From: Peptococcaceae bacterium BRH_c4a
Lineage (GTDB): Bacteria > Bacillota > Desulfotomaculia > Desulfotomaculales > Desulfocucumaceae
DNA: 64,000 nt
NCBI GenBank assembly: GCA_000961585.1
Contig: LADN01000096.1
Span: 1-64,000 of the forward strand
Reading direction: 5' to 3'
Under the pieces are notes generated by a model. That model was not told where the DNA came from and made no database searches. It saw only the letters and a program-made list of their open reading frames with translations. Below are positions 3,398-17,937 of the stretch, piece by piece. Every line of letters begins with the position of its first letter. The stretch's first letter is position 1. A program made the translations under genes and the position numbers.

Positions 3398-5380
3398 CTA
3401 AACCCTCCTGTCCGAAAGTATCCCGGCTTTCCCCCGACTGACCAGGCGGCAGCCGAAAATAGTGACCGCAGTGATGATAATAAAAGTCAGAATAACAAGA
3501 AGTGATCCCATAGACTGACTGTCACCTCCAAAGGCGCTGTACAACTGAGAAACCGTGCCGCCGACGAGGAAGGCCACTGCCCAACTGGTAGCCCATATTA
3601 AGGCGGCTTCTGTTTTTGACCGCTCTTTAAAAATAATCAGAATGGAAGCTATGCAGGGCACAAAAAGAGTTATGGTAATCAGGGCAGCAACTGTTTGTAT
3701 AGGTGTCAGGGCAAGAGAAGTAAGGCCTGCGGCCCCGAAATCCCTTCGCACTATACCCATTATGAAAGCAGTGGAGGTTTCCTTGGGAAGCTTCAGCCAG
3801 CCGACGGTAAATGGGGCCAGCAGGTCCTGCAGAAACTCCAGTACGCCGGTTACCTGGAACACGCTGATGATCAGGGCGCCCAGGGCAAAAAGGGGAAAGG
3901 CCTCTTTTAGAAAATTGTAAGACTTGGTTCCTGTCTTTTTAAGTACATTGTCCAGCCGGGGCAGCCGCAGCGGCGGGAGGTCGATCATGAGGTCCGAGGA
4001 TTTTCCTGGTAACAGAGTGTTTAATACCGTGCCTATAATCACCAGGACCATAAATATAACCAGGGAATACAGCGCAACATTCTGTCCTCCCACCGAGGCC
4101 AGCATCCCGGTTATCACTCCGATCTGGGCCGAGCAGGGGATAGTCAGGCCCAAAAGCAATATGGCAATCCTGCGTTCCCGGTCTGACGCCAAAAGCCTGG
4201 TGGTGATGGTGGCCATGGTTACGCATCCGAACCCCAGTATCAGCGGAATAACACCTCTGCCGTTTAAGCCTATTCCGGTTAACAAACGGTCCACCAGGGT
4301 GGCTATCCTGGGGAGGTACCCGGAATCTTCAAATAGTGAGAGAAATAAGTAGAAACCAACCACCAGGGGCATCAGAAGTCCGAGAACATATGTCACCGTC
4401 ATGGTCAGAACTCCGAATTCCCCCATCAGGATGATTCCCGGCACAGATTCCTCGGATATTAACCTGCCAACCAAACCCCGCACAGCGGGTTCATATTTCC
4501 CCAGCATTATGGTCTCTTCGGTTATGCCCACCACAGTACCGGCAATAAATATACCGATGACCTGGTACATTGCGTAAAGGGCCAGGGCCAGAATGGGCAG
4601 TCCGGTGACCGGCTTGAGCATCCAGCGCCCCAGAAGATTTCCGAAGGAGGCCCCCCGGGATGTTTCCTTCAAAACATGTTTTATTATATCGTTAACCTGG
4701 CTTCTTCTCTTAAGGTATATTTCCTCCCGGTAGCTTTCGGGCTGCAGCCCGTGCCGCTCTGACACCGCCGGATCGCCTTCCAGTATCAGAAGAGCTTCAC
4801 CCCGGCTGCCCACCCGGTTAATCAGCCGGTCCATATGGGGTTCCAGTCCCTGAGTCATCCGGCCTGATCTGGCAGTAAAAATAATTTCCTTTAATTCACT
4901 GAGACCTTTTTTTTGCACAGCCACCGTCGGCACCACCGGAACACCCAGAAGATCGCTCAAAAGGTCTATATCTATGCATAGACCCTGCCGCTCGGCCTCG
5001 TCCAGCATATTCAGCGCCACAATTACCGGCGCCCCGGTATCTATAACCTGTTGGGTCAGAAATAAGTCCCTCTCCAGGTGAACCGAGTCCACGATATTTA
5101 TCACTAAATCAGCCGACAGTATTATATCCCTGGCAATACGCTCCTCATCGTTAAAAGATGATATGCCGTATACCCCCGGGGTGTCGATAATAACATCAGA
5201 TCCTAAATGGCCGTAGGATATTTCCAGAGTAGTGCCGGGGTAGTTGGAAACATCCACATACATTCCAGTGAAAAAATTGAAAAAAACGGATTTTCCCGTG
5301 TTGGGGTTTCCGGCCAATACAATTTTCCTTGCCCCTTCGGGTATGTTTTTCAGTCCTACCGAACCATGACAATGTCCCAA
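3398..5380 (-). CDS. feoB: Ferrous iron transport protein B (GTPase-permease)
   Basis: 660 residues. The N-terminal GTPase has G1 GNPNTGKS at about 24-31, the NYPGTT G2 segment and DTPG at about 66, followed by a helical linker. The membrane domain carries the two FeoB gate regions, including EDSGYLPR, LNGRGVIPLILGFGC and IPCSAQIGV. It moves Fe(II) across the cytoplasmic membrane. TTG start with AAGGAGGTG upstream. The N-terminus MGHCHG has a Cys/His pair sometimes seen in short FeoB proteins. Second gene of feoA-feoB-zinc ribbon, 31 bases after feoA, under the Fur-type operators upstream of feoA. Confidence 0.95.
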   Translation of the reverse strand: MGHCHGSVGLKNIPEGARKIVLAGNPNTGKSVFFNFFTGMYVDVSNYPGTTLEISYGHLGSDVIIDTPGVYGISSFNDEERIARDIILSADLVINIVDSVHLERDLFLTQQVIDTGAPVIVALNMLDEAERQGLCIDIDLLSDLLGVPVVPTVAVQKKGLSELKEIIFTARSGRMTQGLEPHMDRLINRVGSRGEALLILEGDPAVSERHGLQPESYREEIYLKRRSQVNDIIKHVLKETSRGASFGNLLGRWMLKPVTGLPILALALYAMYQVIGIFIAGTVVGITEETIMLGKYEPAVRGLVGRLISEESVPGIILMGEFGVLTMTVTYVLGLLMPLVVGFYLFLSLFEDSGYLPRIATLVDRLLTGIGLNGRGVIPLILGFGCVTMATITTRLLASDRERRIAILLLGLTIPCSAQIGVITGMLASVGGQNVALYSLVIFMVLVIIGTVLNTLLPGKSSDLMIDLPPLRLPRLDNVLKKTGTKSYNFLKEAFPLFALGALIISVFQVTGVLEFLQDLLAPFTVGWLKLPKETSTAFIMGIVRRDFGAAGLTSLALTPIQTVAALITITLFVPCIASILIIFKERSKTEAALIWATSWAVAFLVGGTVSQLYSAFGGDSQSMGSLLVILTFIIITAVTIFGCRLVSRGKAGILSDRRV

Positions 5381-5834: not shown

Positions 5835-6314
5835 ATGACCGTTTTAGGATTGATAATCGCCTTTCTGTTTTTCGCCGCCGGCCTAGCCGGCACAATTTTG
5901 CCTGGAATTCCAGGGGCCCCGCTAATTTGGCTGGGGATGTTGTTATACGGTATTTTCACCGGCTTTAGCAATTTAACGGTCGTATTTTTCATAGGTCAGG
6001 CCCTGGCTGTGGGACTGGTATTCTTTATAGACTATGCGGCAAACGCATGGGGAGTAAGGAGGTATGGCGGCTCCCGGGCGGCGGTGCTGGGCGGCATAGC
6101 CGGTGTTGTACTGGGAATATTCACACTGGGTCCACTGGGAATTATTTTCGGCCCCTTCCTGGGGGCTGTGGCCGGAGAAATTATTGCTCAAAAGCCTCTG
6201 TCCGCCGCTCTCAGGTCGGGAGTAGGCACCATAATAGGAATGATAGGGGGTATGGCCTTCAAGCTGGTGGTTCAGGCCGGAATGATTATCTGGTTTATTA
6301 CAGCCATAAGATAA
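5835..6314 (+). CDS. DUF456 membrane protein
   Basis: 159 residues, nearly all hydrophobic, with about four to five membrane segments. Small-residue-rich loops (GTILPGIPGAPLIWLG, LGPLGIIFGPFLGA, GTIIGMIGGMAFKLVVQ) are the hallmark of DUF456. Function unknown. The ATG at 5835 is chosen over the ATG at 5826 because GGGAGG ends only one base before the latter but is well spaced from the former. Divergent from feoAB; nothing seen ties it to iron. Confidence 0.8.
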   Translation: MTVLGLIIAFLFFAAGLAGTILPGIPGAPLIWLGMLLYGIFTGFSNLTVVFFIGQALAVGLVFFIDYAANAWGVRRYGGSRAAVLGGIAGVVLGIFTLGPLGIIFGPFLGAVAGEIIAQKPLSAALRSGVGTIIGMIGGMAFKLVVQAGMIIWFITAIR

Positions 6315-10904: not shown

Positions 10905-11894
10905 TTGTCAGACGCTATTAACGATTTAATTGATAATTTTACCAAAGGAAATATAAGGGCCCTGGCAAGGCTTATTTCAAAGATAGAAAATGAAGATGAT
11001 GAAAAAGATGAGATTTTGAAAAGACTATATGGAAAAACGGGTAATGCCTTTGTTCTGGGCATTACCGGATCGCCGGGAGCGGGCAAGAGCTCCCTGGTGG
11101 ACCGTATCACCGCCTTCCTTAGAAAGAAGGGCGATACCGTTGGTATCATTGCTGTCGATCCCACCAGTCCGTTTACCGGAGGGGCGCTTTTGGGAGATCG
11201 TATAAGAATGCAGGACCATGCGTTGGATAAAGGTGTATACATAAGAAGCATGGGTACCAGGGGAAGCCTGGGAGGCTTGGCCAGATCCACCAAAGAAGTT
11301 GTAAAGGTGCTGGACGCCTTTGGATACCGGTGGGTTATCGTGGAAACAGTGGGGGTGGGGCAGGCCGAGTTGGATATTATGAATGTTGCCGATACCACAA
11401 TGGTTGTTTTAACACCCGGAGCGGGAGACTCCATTCAGACAATAAAGGCCGGGATAATGGAAATAGCAGATGTTTTTGCTGTTAACAAGTGTGACCTGCC
11501 AGGGGCGGACAGAGTGGTTTCGGAAATAAGCCAGATGCTTGATCTGTCAAAGGAAATCACTGAGTGGCGTCCCCCGGTGGTTAAGGTTTCCACCCTGGAT
11601 GACCGGGGAATGGATGAACTTATGGAAGTGCTGGAAAAACACAGGGCTTATCTCAATGACAGTGGAAACATGGAAGTATACAGGGACGAAATGGCCCGGA
11701 AGGAAACACTTGAAATAGTGGACTACCGCTGGCAGAGAATAGTCAACCATCAACTGAATTATCAGGGACATGTCCGTGATATACTGGACAAGGTGACCGA
11801 CAAGAAGACCGACCCATTTACCGCTGCTGATGAAATACTGGGGTATATTCTTAGAAATTCGGGCTTGCTGGATAATAGTGGGGAAAAAGTTTAA
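10905..11894 (+). CDS. meaB: Methylmalonyl-CoA mutase-associated GTPase MeaB
   Basis: 329 residues. G1 GSPGAGKSS at about 55-63, switch stretch DPTSPFTGGALLGDRIRM, G3-region VETVGVGQ, and NKCD as G4. The family ends with a dimerisation arm. MeaB guards methylmalonyl-CoA mutase, gating adenosylcobalamin loading and off-loading damaged cofactor at the cost of GTP. TTG start with GGAAGGG upstream. It is some 28 kb from mcmAB and on the other strand, unlike genomes where meaB sits beside the mutase. Confidence 0.93.
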   Translation: MSDAINDLIDNFTKGNIRALARLISKIENEDDEKDEILKRLYGKTGNAFVLGITGSPGAGKSSLVDRITAFLRKKGDTVGIIAVDPTSPFTGGALLGDRIRMQDHALDKGVYIRSMGTRGSLGGLARSTKEVVKVLDAFGYRWVIVETVGVGQAELDIMNVADTTMVVLTPGAGDSIQTIKAGIMEIADVFAVNKCDLPGADRVVSEISQMLDLSKEITEWRPPVVKVSTLDDRGMDELMEVLEKHRAYLNDSGNMEVYRDEMARKETLEIVDYRWQRIVNHQLNYQGHVRDILDKVTDKKTDPFTAADEILGYILRNSGLLDNSGEKV

Positions 11895-11913
11895 AAAATT
11901 TAATATAACGGGG

Positions 11914-12180
11914 GTGACAGAGCTGGAAAAAGACAGTGGTCCTGAAAATGGAGAGGAATTACTGAATATACTGATCGGCGCCCTGGAAAAACTGCAAAAG
12001 TCTGACCGGTTGGACTCTCCCGGGTACAGATCCTATCTGCATGGCCAGGTATATGGATTGGCTACGGCGCTGAGAATACTATACCCCGGGCACGGGAACC
12101 TTGGTGAAAGGGCGGCATTGGCTGTAAGACCTGTAATAACGGAACATGTATGTCATTGTGAAGAAAAGGACACTATTTGA
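11914..12180 (+). CDS. Hypothetical protein downstream of meaB
   Basis: 88 residues if the GTG at 11914 is the start; a CTG at 11923 is better spaced from the GGGGGTG but is a rarer start. Mostly helical, with HGQVYGLATALRILYPGHGN and a C-terminal CHCEEKD Cys-x-Cys. It begins 20 bases after meaB and is probably co-transcribed. No family recognised. Confidence 0.5.
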   Translation: MTELEKDSGPENGEELLNILIGALEKLQKSDRLDSPGYRSYLHGQVYGLATALRILYPGHGNLGERAALAVRPVITEHVCHCEEKDTI

Positions 12181-12187
12181 AAAAGTG

Positions 12188-12997
12188 TTAGGGAACATAG
12201 ATATTGAGACCTTCGGCAGATTCATTGCCGGAGGTTTCGTTGTTAATAATGGGATATGCTGAAATTTTCCGGCATATTCCACCGGTGGTTAAAGAAAACT
12301 CTATTTTACACAGAATAATGGCCATTATATCATGTTTAATAAGAATAAGGGTCGGATGATTATGAATTATTCCGCCGACCGACTGAAGAGAGCAGCCGGG
12401 GTCGGTAATGTTATAATAAAGTATTTTTTTACCGTCGTAATTGTTCCCATTTGCAACAGATTCAATGATTTCCCGGTAAACATCTTGCGGTGAGAAATTT
12501 TCTTTTAAAGGTCCGGAAGTATACGGTGAAATACAGTGTATAGTGTAATCGCCTCCGGTGGCGAAATGACCTGTCAGATCATGGGAAAAAAACACTTGAT
12601 CTGAAATGTGCTTGAACCCTGAGGCTACCGAAAGAATAAATACTGTTCGTTCAAAGCTGCAATCGTCCAAAAGACCTGCGGCTGTTGTTTCAATCCCCGG
12701 AATACCCCTCAGGTTAAATAGATCTTTTCCTAATGAGCCTATAACTGCCGAATATATTCCAGGGCGGAAAAAACCCTGTATGGATGAGTAGGTCAGTTCC
12801 TCCCTGGCCTTATACCACGCAAGAAGCAATCTGGATGCGCTGTTTTTGCTGTACTGCCTACCCATGCCTGATCCCGACGGGTCGCTGTCCTTAATTATTT
12901 CAACCCCCTTTTTGAAAAAGTCCTGCCCGAACAGATTTTCGATAATATCACAGGCTTTTTCAGTTTCTTCATAGCTGCAGAGGTGTCCTGAAGTCAA
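12188..12997 (-). CDS. Hypothetical protein, 269 residues
   Basis: TTG at 12997 has AAGGAG 9 bases upstream and is preferred over a TTG at 13048 with no ribosome site. No transmembrane helix or signal peptide is obvious. Distinct stretches include SDPSGSGMGRQYSKNSASRL, a His-rich middle (FFSHDLTGHFATGGDYTIHC) and IHNHPTLILIKHD near the end. The several His, Asp and Cys residues in the C-terminal half could form a metal or hydrolase site, but I recognise no family. Convergent with the meaB pair (8 bases between stops) and divergent from the small-protein cluster at 13.1 kb. Confidence 0.6.
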   Translation of the reverse strand: MTSGHLCSYEETEKACDIIENLFGQDFFKKGVEIIKDSDPSGSGMGRQYSKNSASRLLLAWYKAREELTYSSIQGFFRPGIYSAVIGSLGKDLFNLRGIPGIETTAAGLLDDCSFERTVFILSVASGFKHISDQVFFSHDLTGHFATGGDYTIHCISPYTSGPLKENFSPQDVYREIIESVANGNNYDGKKILYYNITDPGCSLQSVGGIIHNHPTLILIKHDIMAIILCKIEFSLTTGGICRKISAYPIINNETSGNESAEGLNIYVP

Positions 12998-13148
12998 TGT
13001 AGTTAGCTCCTTTTTGCAATTATGCTTTATATCTGTTTTAACTAACAATTATATTCATTCTGTAACAATTAGCAGTACCCTTTCATATTTTAAATTAGAA
13101 CGTCCGATGCGTTCAAGAAAAATTGTAATTTGAAAGGAGGCAGTTCAC

Positions 13149-13331
13149 GTGAGTGACGCCCTGACTGCATTAAAGGAGCATTTAGTTCCTGGCAGATTTA
13201 ATTTTTTGATTTGTTTAGTTCTTTTCTGGATTGCTATTGCCCTCCTGCTCTGTGGCATCGCAACTCCCTGTACGGCAGGCGCCATAATATTTTTCGGGTT
13301 GGTGCTCTGCTGCTGCACTGGCTGCATTTAG
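13149..13331 (+). CDS. Small hydrophobic protein with a Cys-rich C-terminus
   Basis: 60 residues, GTG start with a strong GAAAGGAGG site. A polar N-terminus of about 16 residues is followed by two hydrophobic segments (LICLVLFWIAIALLLCG and AGAIIFFGLVLCC) and ends CCCTGCI. Likely a membrane hairpin. Function unknown. First plus-strand gene of the unknown cluster and followed at once by a terminator. Confidence 0.6.
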   Translation: MSDALTALKEHLVPGRFNFLICLVLFWIAIALLLCGIATPCTAGAIIFFGLVLCCCTGCI

Positions 13332-13351
13332 CAAAGATGTTCTTTAGGTTA

Positions 13352-13383
13352 AAAAGGGCTACACCTTTTGTGTAGCCCTTTAA
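13352..13383 (+). terminator. Terminator after the small membrane protein
   Basis: AAAGGGCTACAC-CTTTT-GTGTAGCCCTTT, a perfect 12-bp stem with a short T tail and an upstream A run. Confidence 0.75.
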
Positions 13384-13430
13384 ACACCCGAGTGCCCGCA
13401 AAGATAAAAAATCAAAGGAAGTGGGCAGAA

Positions 13431-14078
13431 ATGAAGTTTGAGACGGACGGGCAGGTTGGCGATTTGCTGGAGGGTCTGGTTGAAAAGATAGAGAGGATTA
13501 ATCGGGAAAAAAATGAGGAGTTTGAAAGATCAAAACGTGCTCTGTCCTCCATGGATAAGCTGAACGAGGCCATGGCGCGCCTGGAATTTCAAAGAAGGCG
13601 GGAAAATCTGATGGCCAAAAAGATATCCCGTATTTATGATCAACTGGAAAAGGGTACTGGGGTTGAAAGGGGCACTGACGGGATCAAGAGCGCGACCCAT
13701 CTCATTACAGGGTTTCTTAACGGGGCAAAGGCCACAGGGCAGGTAATTGAAATTGTGGCAGGCAGCCTGATGGTTATGATGGATACCGTTTCCAATGTAA
13801 TAAAAAATCAGTCTGCAGGTTCCAGGGGCCATTCTCCGGGAGGAGAGTCGAAGGGCCTGGATCTGGCAGCATTATTGAAACCTGTCAATGTCATTTTAAA
13901 CTCTCTGGCAGCAAAGCAGCAGCAACAGCAGCAGTCGCAGCAGCCGGCCACTTCCGACGCACCCAAATCCTCCGATCCCAAACCTGCCGGGCAGCCCCTG
14001 TCAAAGGACGACAATACATTGGTGCAAGTAGTAAGGGCAGTTCCGGCCAGCAACGGCACAGATCAGGATAACAGTTAA
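13431..14078 (+). CDS. Coiled-coil protein with hydrophobic core and poly-Q tail (paralog A)
   Basis: 215 residues. Residues 1-60 are heptad-rich coiled coil (LVEKIERINREKNEEFERSK). About 85-125 is a glycine/hydrophobic helical stretch (GQVIEIVAGSLMVMMDTVSN), then LAALLKPVNVILNSLAAK, then QQQQQQSQQ encoded by CAG/CAA repeats, and a disordered Pro/Ser/Asp tail. Architecture and order of motifs match the gene at 14482, so they are paralogs. ATG at 13431 has GGAAGTGGG upstream. The family is not recognised; a structural or membrane-associated oligomer is plausible. Confidence 0.6.
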   Translation: MKFETDGQVGDLLEGLVEKIERINREKNEEFERSKRALSSMDKLNEAMARLEFQRRRENLMAKKISRIYDQLEKGTGVERGTDGIKSATHLITGFLNGAKATGQVIEIVAGSLMVMMDTVSNVIKNQSAGSRGHSPGGESKGLDLAALLKPVNVILNSLAAKQQQQQQSQQPATSDAPKSSDPKPAGQPLSKDDNTLVQVVRAVPASNGTDQDNS

Positions 14079-14114
14079 AAAAAGGGGGCCGCAATTAAAT
14101 TGCAGCCCTTTTTT
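14077..14114. terminator. Bidirectional terminator between convergent genes
   Basis: AAAAAAGGG..CCGCAATT paired with ATTGCAGCCCTTTTTT. A and T tracts on both sides serve paralog A and the convergent 76-residue gene. Confidence 0.75.
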
Positions 14115-14115
14115 C

Positions 14116-14346
14116 TTATTTCCGGGGCATCAGCTTCAATATATTCTCCATCATTTCCTTCAGGGTATCTGTTTGATCGGCCGGCAGGGAATCCTTAAGC
14201 ATAGAAAGCATTGAATTCATCATTAATGATAGGGTGGCCGGATCGTACATGGTCACAAATTTTTCAATCATTTGGGGATCAAGGTTTTGTGCCATGCTTT
14301 TCAGGGGCTCCGGCAGCGCACCTAAATCAATGGGTAATTTATCCAA
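14116..14346 (-). CDS. Small helical hypothetical protein
   Basis: 76 residues, ATG at 14346 with GGAGGCGTGG upstream. Rich in Met and Leu with amphipathic helices (LPEPLKSMAQNLDPQMIEKF, MMNSMLSMLKDSL, LKEMMENILKLMP). No transmembrane segment and no recognised family. It lies on the opposite strand between the two paralogous coiled-coil genes. Confidence 0.55.
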   Translation of the reverse strand: MDKLPIDLGALPEPLKSMAQNLDPQMIEKFVTMYDPATLSLMMNSMLSMLKDSLPADQTDTLKEMMENILKLMPRK

Positions 14347-14481
14347 ACTCCACGCCTCCTGTTTTTTATTCTACACTATGATTGAAAGCTTATTTTTGCG
14401 ACTTTCCGTCAAAAAATGGTCTAATCATATAAGGCAAAAAATAAAAATAAGTAAGTCATGGTATGAGGGGTGGGACAGTGG

Positions 14482-15060
14482 ATGAGTGAGCCTTCTGGAG
14501 AAAACCTCAGCTTAACTGTGGAAAAAATGATCCATAAAATGGAGAGGATTCATGAGCGGCAGGCCGCTGAGAATGACAGGATTGAAAGGATCATGTCGTC
14601 ACTTGAAAGTCTTTCCCAGGCGCTTTCCAGGATGGAGTCCGGCAGAAACCTGGAATCGGAATTCTATAAAAGGATTGATTTGCTGAACCAGAGTTTGGAG
14701 AGAATTGCCAGTTTTCACGAAGGTGAAGGGGCTAAAGGAGTATCCGAAGGAACAATTGAAAGGGTAGTCCAGGGTGTAAAAGTTTTCGGTCAGGTGGTAT
14801 CCGCAGTGGCCATTGGCATTCAGGTTATCATAGACAACGTGGGAACAGCATTAAATAAAGACCCGGAGGGGAATGTCGTTTCTCCGGATAAAGTACGGAC
14901 CGCCAAAACCCAGGCTGATTTGTCCATGCTTCTTCTGCCTGTAAGTACCCTGGTAAAAAATCTGGTTGATGAAAAATTAAAAAAGGAAGCGGCCCTAAAT
15001 AAAGACGAAGCCCAGGAACAGTTTAAAATTGCCTCGGGTTCTGAAGGAGATTCAATCTGA
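14482..15060 (+). CDS. Coiled-coil protein with hydrophobic core (paralog B)
   Basis: 192 residues, ATG at 14482 behind GAGGGGTGGG; a GTG at 14470 is less well placed. Residues 5-85 are predicted coiled coil (MIHKMERIHERQAAENDRIE). Then VVSAVAIGIQVIIDNVGTAL and LSMLLLPVSTLVKNLVDEKL align with the two hydrophobic blocks of the gene at 13431. It lacks the poly-Q tail and ends with a charged EAQEQFKIASGSEGDSI-like tail. No known domain recognised. Confidence 0.6.
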   Translation: MSEPSGENLSLTVEKMIHKMERIHERQAAENDRIERIMSSLESLSQALSRMESGRNLESEFYKRIDLLNQSLERIASFHEGEGAKGVSEGTIERVVQGVKVFGQVVSAVAIGIQVIIDNVGTALNKDPEGNVVSPDKVRTAKTQADLSMLLLPVSTLVKNLVDEKLKKEAALNKDEAQEQFKIASGSEGDSI

Positions 15061-15138
15061 AATAAAAAATAATAAAGGAAATATCATTGGGAAAAAGAAT
15101 ATATTCGGGTGGAAAAGTAGTACGGGAGTGACATCTGC

Positions 15139-17937
15139 TTGTTAGACCGCTATGTAGCTGTCGATCTTGAGACCACCGGACTTAATCCGGGATTGGATTC
15201 AATAATAGAAGTGGGTTTGGTCAAGGTCAGTGGGAGGGAAATAATTGACACCTTTCATACCCTGGTCATGCCCGCCGTAAAGCTGCCTTTTTTTGTCCAA
15301 AAGCTGACCGGGATTGAAGAACGTATGTTGGAGGGCGCTCCCTGGATAGACAGCATAAGGGGGCATATTGCAGCTTTCATCGAAGGTGAGAATTTACTGG
15401 GCCACAATGCGGGCTTTGACGTTGGTTTTATAGAGTCTGCACTGGGGAGGCCAATTAATAATCCCATTTATGATACCCTTGAATTGTCAAGAATAATGAT
15501 GCCCTCGGCAAAAAGCTACAGGCTGATGCAGTTATGCAAGGCGGCGGGATTAAGAACCGAAGCAATACACCGCGCCATGGAAGATGCAATGGCTGTTATA
15601 AAGCTTTTTGAATACCTGTCAAACTCTGTTTGCGGGCTGGACGGGCACTTGATTGTGTATCTTGAGTCTCTTTTGAAAAAAGCCGGATCCCCCTGGGGTG
15701 GTTTGCTTTCCGGATATGCCGGAATATCGTTGGGCAATCATTTTCTTCATCGGGTCAGGGAAAACTACAATCAGGATCAGAGCAGTATTTATGAGAACTC
15801 CGAACCGTGGGGGTATGTGGCCCCGGAGGAAGTTAGAAGGTTTACTTCATTAGACGGCGCCCTCTCCAGAAACTTACCCTCATATGAATACAGGCCCCAG
15901 CAGGAAGAAATGGCCTGTGAGGTGGCCAGGGCCTTTAATGAAAAAAAGTTCTTATTGGTGGAGGCAGGCACCGGAACGGGAAAGTCAATTTCCTACCTGT
16001 TGCCTTCCCTGCTTTGGGTGGCAGGGGGAGGACCAAGGGTGGTCATCTCCACAAGGACCATAAATCTTCAGGACCAGTTGTGGTTTAAAGACATACCCCA
16101 GTTGATGAGGTGCCTGGGGGTAAATGTCAAGACTGTACTGGCAAAGGGCCGATCCAACTATCTTTGCCGAAGGCGGTGGGACTCGGCTTTGTCGGAGGGG
16201 TTGTGGTCGGATCAGGAGGCCCGGTTTTACGCTAGGGTGCTGGTATGGGTAAATGAAACAAAGAGCGGGGATAAGGTCGAACTGAACCTTAACCATCAGG
16301 AGGAGGAAGCCTGGCAGAATATTTGTGCCGAAAGTGAAAACTGCATGGGATTCAGGTGCCGGCACTTCTCAGGTTCGTGTTTTGTGGTGCGGGCCAGACG
16401 TGAGGCGGAATCTTCAGGGCTGGTAATAACCAATCATGCCCTTCTTTTTTCCGATATAAAAACCGGAAACATGGTGCTTCCGTCTTACGGCCCTCTCATT
16501 ATAGATGAGGCCCACCATCTGGAGGACGCGGCCACTGAACAACTGGGCAGACAGGTGTCCAGGAGTGATATAAGGCGCTGGCTTCAAAGCGCCGCCAGAA
16601 TAGTGTTAAAAAGCTGGGAGGTCATTCCGCCCACAGATTCTGAACGGTGGATGCACAGCCTGATCTCCCTGAGGGAAGAAATAAACGGTTTGCGAATGAC
16701 TTCCGAGGAATTCTTCTCACTGCTTAAAAGCTATATATACCGGCAAGTTCCCTTGAATGAAGGGGAACACCATACTTTCAGGATTAAGAATGATTATTTT
16801 TGCGGGGATACCCCGGGACTGCCCTGGGGTGAATTTGAAAATCTTATTTACAGGATAAAGACAGTAATAAGCGGTTTCAGGAAAATTACAGTTTTGATGC
16901 AGGCATGGGAGTTGGAAAATGACTCCTGGGGAGACAGGTTAAAGGATTTTTTAACTTTAACGGGAAAAGGCGAGGAATTGCTGGATAACCTCCAGTTTGT
17001 TTTCAGGTGCAGCAATGATTCTTTTGTCTATTGGATATCGGTATATGGTCAGGGCGATTGGTATTCACTTTCCATGAGCTCTTCTCCGGTCAGGGTGGGT
17101 GAACTGCTGTACGACAGTCTTTTTTCAGGCAAGGAATCGGTGATTATGACCTCGGCCACCCTTACAACCAACGGCAGTTTTGATTTTTTCGCCGAAAGGG
17201 TGGGAATAGACCGGGTATCAGTGGCAAAGGTAGTGAAAAAAAATATAGAATCACCTTTCCTTTATGAAAGCCAGTCCCTTTTGTGTGTGGTTAACGACTT
17301 GCCCCTGCAGGGAGCCGGGGCCGACAGGCTCTATGCCAAAAGGATAAGCTCGTCACTGGAGGAATTAATACTGGCGGTTGGCGGAAAAACACTGGTTCTG
17401 TTTACCTCCCACAGGGTTTTAAGGGAGGTTTACGGAATTGTTAAGGCTTCCATGGAGGATAAGGATATAGCGGTGCTGGGTCATAATATGGACGGCAACA
17501 GGTCCCGGCTGGTGGAGGAATTCATGAGAACCGAAAGAGCCGTTCTTATGGGCTCGGCCAGTTTCTGGGAAGGCATAGACATCCCCGGTGAAGCCCTCAC
17601 CAGTGTAATTATTGTCAAACTTCCCTTCCCATCACCCTCGTCGCCGGTGATCGAGGCCAGGGTGGAGGATCTGGAGCAGAATGGCCGCAGTTCATTTTAT
17701 GAATACTATTTACCGCTGGCGGTAATCAGGTTTAAACAGGGTTTTGGCAGGCTCATCAGATCAGAAAGCGACAGGGGTGTAGTGGTGGTCCTGGACAGAA
17801 GGATTATTGAAAAGGGCTATGGCAAGCAATTCCTCAACTCCCTTCCGGTGGAGGGACATTTTAGAGGGGACACCAGAGGTGTTGCCAATAAAATCCAACA
17901 TTGGATGAATAGTTCAACTGGCCGGGGAGACTTGTAG
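15139..17937 (+). CDS. dinG: DinG-family helicase with N-terminal DnaQ-like exonuclease
   Basis: 932 residues. The N-terminal ~170 residues are a DEDDh 3'-5' exonuclease (AVDLETTGLNPG, GHNAGFDVGFIE, HRAMEDAMAV). The helicase has Walker A GTGTGKS at about 278-284, an Fe-S domain whose cysteines appear as CRRRW, CAESENCMGFRC and GSC, DEAH at about 456 and the C-terminal QGFGRLIRSESDRG motif. This fusion is the Gram-positive DinG type, acting on DNA damage or replication-conflict intermediates. TTG start with GGGAGTGA upstream. It follows the unknown cluster but shows no clear link to it. Confidence 0.93.
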   Translation: MLDRYVAVDLETTGLNPGLDSIIEVGLVKVSGREIIDTFHTLVMPAVKLPFFVQKLTGIEERMLEGAPWIDSIRGHIAAFIEGENLLGHNAGFDVGFIESALGRPINNPIYDTLELSRIMMPSAKSYRLMQLCKAAGLRTEAIHRAMEDAMAVIKLFEYLSNSVCGLDGHLIVYLESLLKKAGSPWGGLLSGYAGISLGNHFLHRVRENYNQDQSSIYENSEPWGYVAPEEVRRFTSLDGALSRNLPSYEYRPQQEEMACEVARAFNEKKFLLVEAGTGTGKSISYLLPSLLWVAGGGPRVVISTRTINLQDQLWFKDIPQLMRCLGVNVKTVLAKGRSNYLCRRRWDSALSEGLWSDQEARFYARVLVWVNETKSGDKVELNLNHQEEEAWQNICAESENCMGFRCRHFSGSCFVVRARREAESSGLVITNHALLFSDIKTGNMVLPSYGPLIIDEAHHLEDAATEQLGRQVSRSDIRRWLQSAARIVLKSWEVIPPTDSERWMHSLISLREEINGLRMTSEEFFSLLKSYIYRQVPLNEGEHHTFRIKNDYFCGDTPGLPWGEFENLIYRIKTVISGFRKITVLMQAWELENDSWGDRLKDFLTLTGKGEELLDNLQFVFRCSNDSFVYWISVYGQGDWYSLSMSSSPVRVGELLYDSLFSGKESVIMTSATLTTNGSFDFFAERVGIDRVSVAKVVKKNIESPFLYESQSLLCVVNDLPLQGAGADRLYAKRISSSLEELILAVGGKTLVLFTSHRVLREVYGIVKASMEDKDIAVLGHNMDGNRSRLVEEFMRTERAVLMGSASFWEGIDIPGEALTSVIIVKLPFPSPSSPVIEARVEDLEQNGRSSFYEYYLPLAVIRFKQGFGRLIRSESDRGVVVVLDRRIIEKGYGKQFLNSLPVEGHFRGDTRGVANKIQHWMNSSTGRGDL

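Follow-up and report, generated by a model that had tools for sequence, protein, structure and literature searches.

A clostridial locus of small helical proteins with a sigma-K-type promoter and a conserved RNA hairpin: a candidate late mother-cell sporulation module

In C. difficile, the sigma-K-dependent promoters of the late mother-cell regulon, which includes coat and exosporium genes such as cotA and cotE, carry AC in the -35 and CATA in the -10 element, and few of the coat proteins of Bacillus are conserved outside the Bacilli (PMC3789822). The SpoIIID box of the same species is KRTAACARK (PMC5025042). Sulfate-reducing clostridia and related ones persist for a very long time in sediments and in the deep subsurface, and their spore envelopes are scarcely known. 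The locus considered here lies in a stretch of 64,000 nucleotides (the window) of the genome of Peptococcaceae bacterium BRH_c4a, whose assembly comprises 3.49 Mb in 98 contigs, and no description of it was found in the open-access literature. The explanation that we favour, and consider probable, is that the locus is a late mother-cell sporulation module, in which the products of hp60, par and M76 would be parts of the spore envelope and which would originally have included a processing protease.

Gene content and the neighbouring C269

The five noted open reading frames were verified at their positions in the window and, given their conservation in other genera (46-75% identity in the case of M76), they are real genes rather than chance reading frames. 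The earlier note had described them as lacking recognisable families, a description that held: no protein scores above the curated cut-offs of Pfam or NCBIfam, and PHROGs gave no convincing match for any of them. Housekeeping genes (meaB, dinG and psd) surround the locus. The small protein u89 (11911-12180), whose gene is closely linked to meaB across many genomes, carries the conserved motif YLHGQ(I/V)YGLA.ALR..(F/Y)PGPGN.GE.AAL..RP..TEH.C.C, and no matching family was found for it.

The membrane or structural flavour attributed to the cluster from its letters is supported by the proteins themselves. The first gene, hp60 (13149..13331, + strand), encodes a Cys-rich membrane protein of 60 aa with two hydrophobic helices (maximum 19-residue hydropathy 3.0) and conserved Cys, whose relatives in its own and other families show 32-64% identity; its C-terminus reads CCCTGCI and not, as previously given, CCCTGC. 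M76 (14116..14346, - strand) belongs to a conserved family and is indeed the Met/Leu-rich helical protein that had been proposed, with 11 Met and 13 Leu among its 76 residues. The two par genes, parA (13431..14078, +) and parB (14482..15060, +), are likewise true paralogues, aligned by BLASTP with 29% identity over 153 aa (E 1e-14) and falling into two separate groups of a maximum-likelihood tree. Each group draws in one gene from f10 (these placements are insecure), and since f10 genes occur in both, the duplication probably predates the split between f1 and f10.

ParA consists of a long helix, a borderline hydrophobic helix and a Q-rich tail, in which the poly-Q run noted earlier is present. 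The AF2 model has helices at 5-77, 86-130 and 145-168, the first of them 73 residues long, although its overall fold is unreliable (pTM 0.35); the hydrophobicity of the central Par helix (0.8-1.95) puts it at the limit of what a membrane helix requires, and PDB sequence profiles returned mainly designed helical bundles. Residues 13-110 of ParB match PHROG 937 (hemolysin, XhlA-type) at 2e-4, with nearly the whole profile covered. This match speaks for a different role under the same sigma-K control, namely mother-cell lysis or germination, in which Par and Hp60 would perturb membranes in a holin- or XhlA-like manner and the S8 peptidase linked to the locus in relatives would be a lytic or germination protease. 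We regard such a role as unlikely, since ParA does not match PHROG 937, Pfam contains no XhlA match and a coiled-coil bias is likely to lie behind the match of ParB; an XhlA/hemolysin identity of Par was rejected on these grounds.

C269 (12188..12997, - strand) is a different case. Its 269-residue reading starts from a TTG at 12997 with AAAGGAG upstream, the mechanical reading frame being of 286 aa from 13048. The model is good (pTM 0.81), with a helical N-terminal half and a C-terminal half that resembles the PD-(D/E)XK fold without its catalytic motif. As in XisH, YaeQ, SfsA and McrC, the order of helices and strands in this half fits that fold, and there is a run of weak structural matches to proteins of this type (BsmI and PaqCI included), at Z about 4-6 for these six and at Z 4-8 overall, none of them decisive; unlike in those proteins, the catalytic D and the (D/E)xK motif are not conserved in the 15-row alignment of the C269 family. 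The same half also weakly matches domains of acetyl-CoA carboxylase and a toxin domain of CdiA. In Foldseek, central domains of acetyl-CoA carboxylase gave the best matches for C269, which were discarded as too weak (TM about 0.3). PDB sequence profiles returned nothing for C269. The protein was found in 40 of the 113 genomes of the order with a distribution that differs from that of par, u89-C269-dinG occurring in genomes without par and par occurring elsewhere without C269, so that C269 is a neighbour outside the par unit and not a subunit of it.

Promoter and hairpin elements

In its full IUPAC form, the sigma-K consensus is mACm-N16-17-CATAnnnTA, and exact matches to it were searched on both strands. 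Only two occur in the 64 kb of the window, and one of them, AACA-N16-CATATTTTA (13064..13092, +), lies 57 nt before the start of hp60. An exact match stands ahead of the hp60-type gene in 19 of the 27 loci that have one, about 55-75 nt before the start and in five families (f1, f3, f8, f11 and f14), with spacers that have diverged among relatives and with both elements and their distance kept. About 8 other matches were counted in 405 kb (both strands), and about 0.03 would be expected across the 27 upstream regions, of 115 nt each, against the 19 seen, which are not 19 independent events, as the loci are related. Several distant loci (f4, f6, f10 and f51) have no exact match, neither M76 nor parB has a clear sigma-K promoter, and the sigma-E and sigma-G consensus, as formulated by us, gave no exact match in the window. 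A SpoIIID-type box, TGTAACAAT (13061..13069, +), matches the C. difficile form and overlaps the -35 element; GTAACA is kept around this element in nearly all relatives of f1, f3, f11 and f14, the exact 9-mer being present in five loci and some relatives matching only partially. The earlier note had suggested looking at expression during sporulation, and a promoter of sigma-K type conserved across families bears this suggestion out. From these sequence patterns we strongly infer that sigma-K controls hp60, and late mother-cell expression of the locus appears likely.

It could still be argued that the promoter merely resembles sigma-K sites and that the locus is a vegetative membrane or stress system, since sigma-E/K sites are short and the neighbours meaB, dinG and psd are housekeeping genes. 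An exact bipartite motif, at a near-constant position and with diverged spacers, at such an excess over expectation in five families makes this quite improbable.

Other motifs deserve mention. The promoter-like motif GCAAAA-N13-CATA before M76 (14377..14399, - strand) is the sole exact match in the window and also precedes M76 in eight other loci, including one of f51; in the form GCAAAA-N12-13-CATA it was seen before M76 in L154, L155, L133, L126 and L159, and it is kept in f51, where M76 stands without par. As it fits no sigma consensus well, it was not accepted as a known sigma site. One genome (G025; L134) has a second exact sigma-K match, at 6122-6150. It stands 35 nt ahead of the gene for a YbaB/EbfC paralogue, itself upstream of hp60, and hints that YbaB may be expressed in sporulation there. 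In L132, a transposase-like reading frame (3835-5070; IS110 type, as judged by eye) separates ybaB from the hp60 promoter, the promoter, hp60 and par being intact.

Two hairpins flank hp60. The leader hairpin, GAACG...CGTTC (13098..13114, +), lies just 3' of the -10 element and is kept in relatives, in most of them with a CCCGGG core (GAACG-NNN-CCCGGG-NNN-CGTTC) and with pair-preserving changes (GAACT/AGTTC and GAACA/TGTTC). Directly 3' of hp60 is the second, AAAGGGCTACAC-CTTTT-GTGTAGCCCTTT (13353..13381, +; z -3.4). A search of positions 11500-15600, which hold both hairpins, returned no Rfam family at E values up to 0.5. The exact 9-bp stem pattern, GGGCTACAC-N2-8-GTGTAGCCC, was found in 24 of the 113 genomes of the order, once per genome and adjoining par wherever its position was compared, and the reversed control pattern in none of them. 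Variants keep their pairing, with 96.6% of cells paired and 7 pairs changed on both sides, a covariation that none of 500 shuffles equalled and that was far lower in slid controls. Across 398 genomes of the phylum, the sole additional carrier of the exact pattern is G168, where the hairpin follows an hp60-type gene converging on M76 and where a search for par found nothing; it is thus the hp60-type gene that the hairpin accompanies. The G168 locus (L154, 5601-6128, - strand), with hp60-type gene, hairpin and M76 and with par and S8 absent nearby, is the smallest form seen.

Three strong terminators had been claimed for the locus, and one of them stands: the bidirectional intrinsic terminator at 14086..14108, between parA and M76, which is clean and intergenic, with a 10-bp stem, an A-run before it and a T-run after it (reported on the - strand). 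The one at 12205-12239 falls within the coding sequence of C269, and that at 13353-13381, the hp60 hairpin, has a strong stem but a short T-tract. Its tail, CCCTTTAAAC, has a T-tract of three, below the at least 5 T of an intrinsic terminator, which is why the terminator scan was silent about it and why it is not a textbook terminator. It resembles an intrinsic or partial terminator between operon genes in that a stable, GC-rich stem follows a short first gene. It departs from one in its short T-tract and in its stem sequence, which hardly varies from family to family and occurs once in each genome. A hairpin conserved in sequence and present once per genome is an unusual RNA element, and it calls for more than simple termination as an explanation.

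Locus architecture in relatives and the S8 subtilase

By the criterion of the earlier note itself, absence of conserved linkage in relatives would have refuted its reading; on this test the linkage proved to be conserved. Of the 113 genomes of the order, 41 carry the par family, which was found in few genomes beyond the order, and the named relatives carrying M76 are labelled mostly as Peptococcaceae or Desulfovirgula MAGs. In the window's family (G001, G002, G003, G005 and G007) the genes run meaB-u89-C269(opposite)-hp60-parA-M76(opposite)-parB-dinG, which f10 (G016) repeats with a hydrolase gene inserted between meaB and u89. Families f3 and f11 have hp60-par-S8 peptidase-heavy-metal domain, with YbaB paralogues upstream; f8 has hp-par-S8-M76(opposite)-dinG; f14 (G471), trxB-meaB-hp-par-S8-M76(opposite)-par-dinG; f2 (G008), hp-par-S8-M76(opposite)-par; and a distant family (G177), hp-M76-S8-par. 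What did not survive the comparison is the treatment of the five genes as a single unit, C269 having its own distribution and M76 also being separable, as its presence without par in f51 illustrates. In the distant L130, par is followed at a distance of about 2.5 kb by a gene of SipL/LysM spore-coat type, which has a sigma-K match of its own. In distant genomes (L130, 1958-4368; L157, 1878-6089), M76 relatives are accompanied by a NAL1/trypsin-like peptidase and by further small proteins without names; this may be a parallel set that combines a peptidase with small proteins.

Many relatives thus have a gene for an S8 subtilase in the locus, in sister families between par and M76, and in the window's lineage it is absent beside par. 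The most economical reading of these gene orders is that hp-par-S8-M76-par would be ancestral and that S8 was later lost in this lineage, although it may instead have been gained elsewhere. The search for an orthologue in the rest of the window's own genome yielded other subtilases only, most of the alignments beginning past the propeptide region. One S8 peptidase of this genome (L141, 4681-5769; G000:C49) lies in a phage-like region, beside apparent phage lysis and structural genes.

The linked enzyme, of about 370 aa, resembles subtilases in general. Like YabG and CspB/CspA, it is a protease tied to a sporulation locus, and it has the S8 catalytic domain in common with Csp; its score, however, falls far below the cut-off of the CspBA model of NCBIfam (51 bits against 1250), so that its identification as the CspBA germination protease was rejected, and its gene is missing from the window's locus. 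Weak as it is, the CspBA match is the second point in favour of the lysis or germination role, against which it also counts that hp60, M76 and two copies of par persist in a lineage whose locus has no peptidase gene beside par. This persistence argues that the structural genes work without S8 or that another protease has replaced it.

The variable gene content among families, the restricted distribution and the fast evolution of par would also be compatible with a cassette that is a remnant or a mobile element of phage origin and that drifts with no function. The strong conservation of M76 and hp60, a hairpin stem that hardly changes between families and the stable synteny with meaB and dinG make this very improbable indeed.

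A possible module of the late mother cell

In the favoured reading, that of a late mother-cell sporulation module, sigma-K RNA polymerase, probably together with SpoIIID, would drive hp60 late in the mother cell, with a transcription start 7-10 nt after CATAATTTA that would be used in late sporulation only. The leader and 3' stem-loops would protect the short hp60 message, and the latter may let only part of the polymerases pass from hp60 into par. We infer an envelope role for Hp60, Par and M76, of which Par (with its long coiled-coil helix and its weakly hydrophobic helix) and M76 would be helical partners in the coat or in the outer forespore membrane. In relatives, the S8 enzyme, an intracellular subtilase, would likely be the processing enzyme that matures or turns over one of the three. 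A more specific version, which we put forward only tentatively, is that of an undescribed sigma-K module (hp60, par, M76 and S8) that builds a clostridia-specific layer of the spore envelope and in which the 3' hairpin, conserved in sequence, sets the ratio of the first protein to the others.

The genome studied carries SpoIVA, as do 104 of the 113 genomes of the order, and this near-universality makes the co-occurrence of par and SpoIVA uninformative on the link to sporulation. Many SpoIVA-bearing genomes of the order (in f7 and f16, for instance) gave no par match, from which it follows that sporulation can proceed without the locus. With a list of late sporulation genes that are specific to the lineage and anchored by their promoters, the clostridial envelope layer becomes testable, and the locus points to spore-building parts undescribed in model species. 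In comparison with the late mother-cell regulon of sigma-K (PMC3789822), the locus differs in its unnamed protein families, which, as searched, are nearly confined to one order and a few distant genomes, and it resembles that regulon in the elements that precede its first gene: the AC and CATA of the promoter and the SpoIIID-type box.
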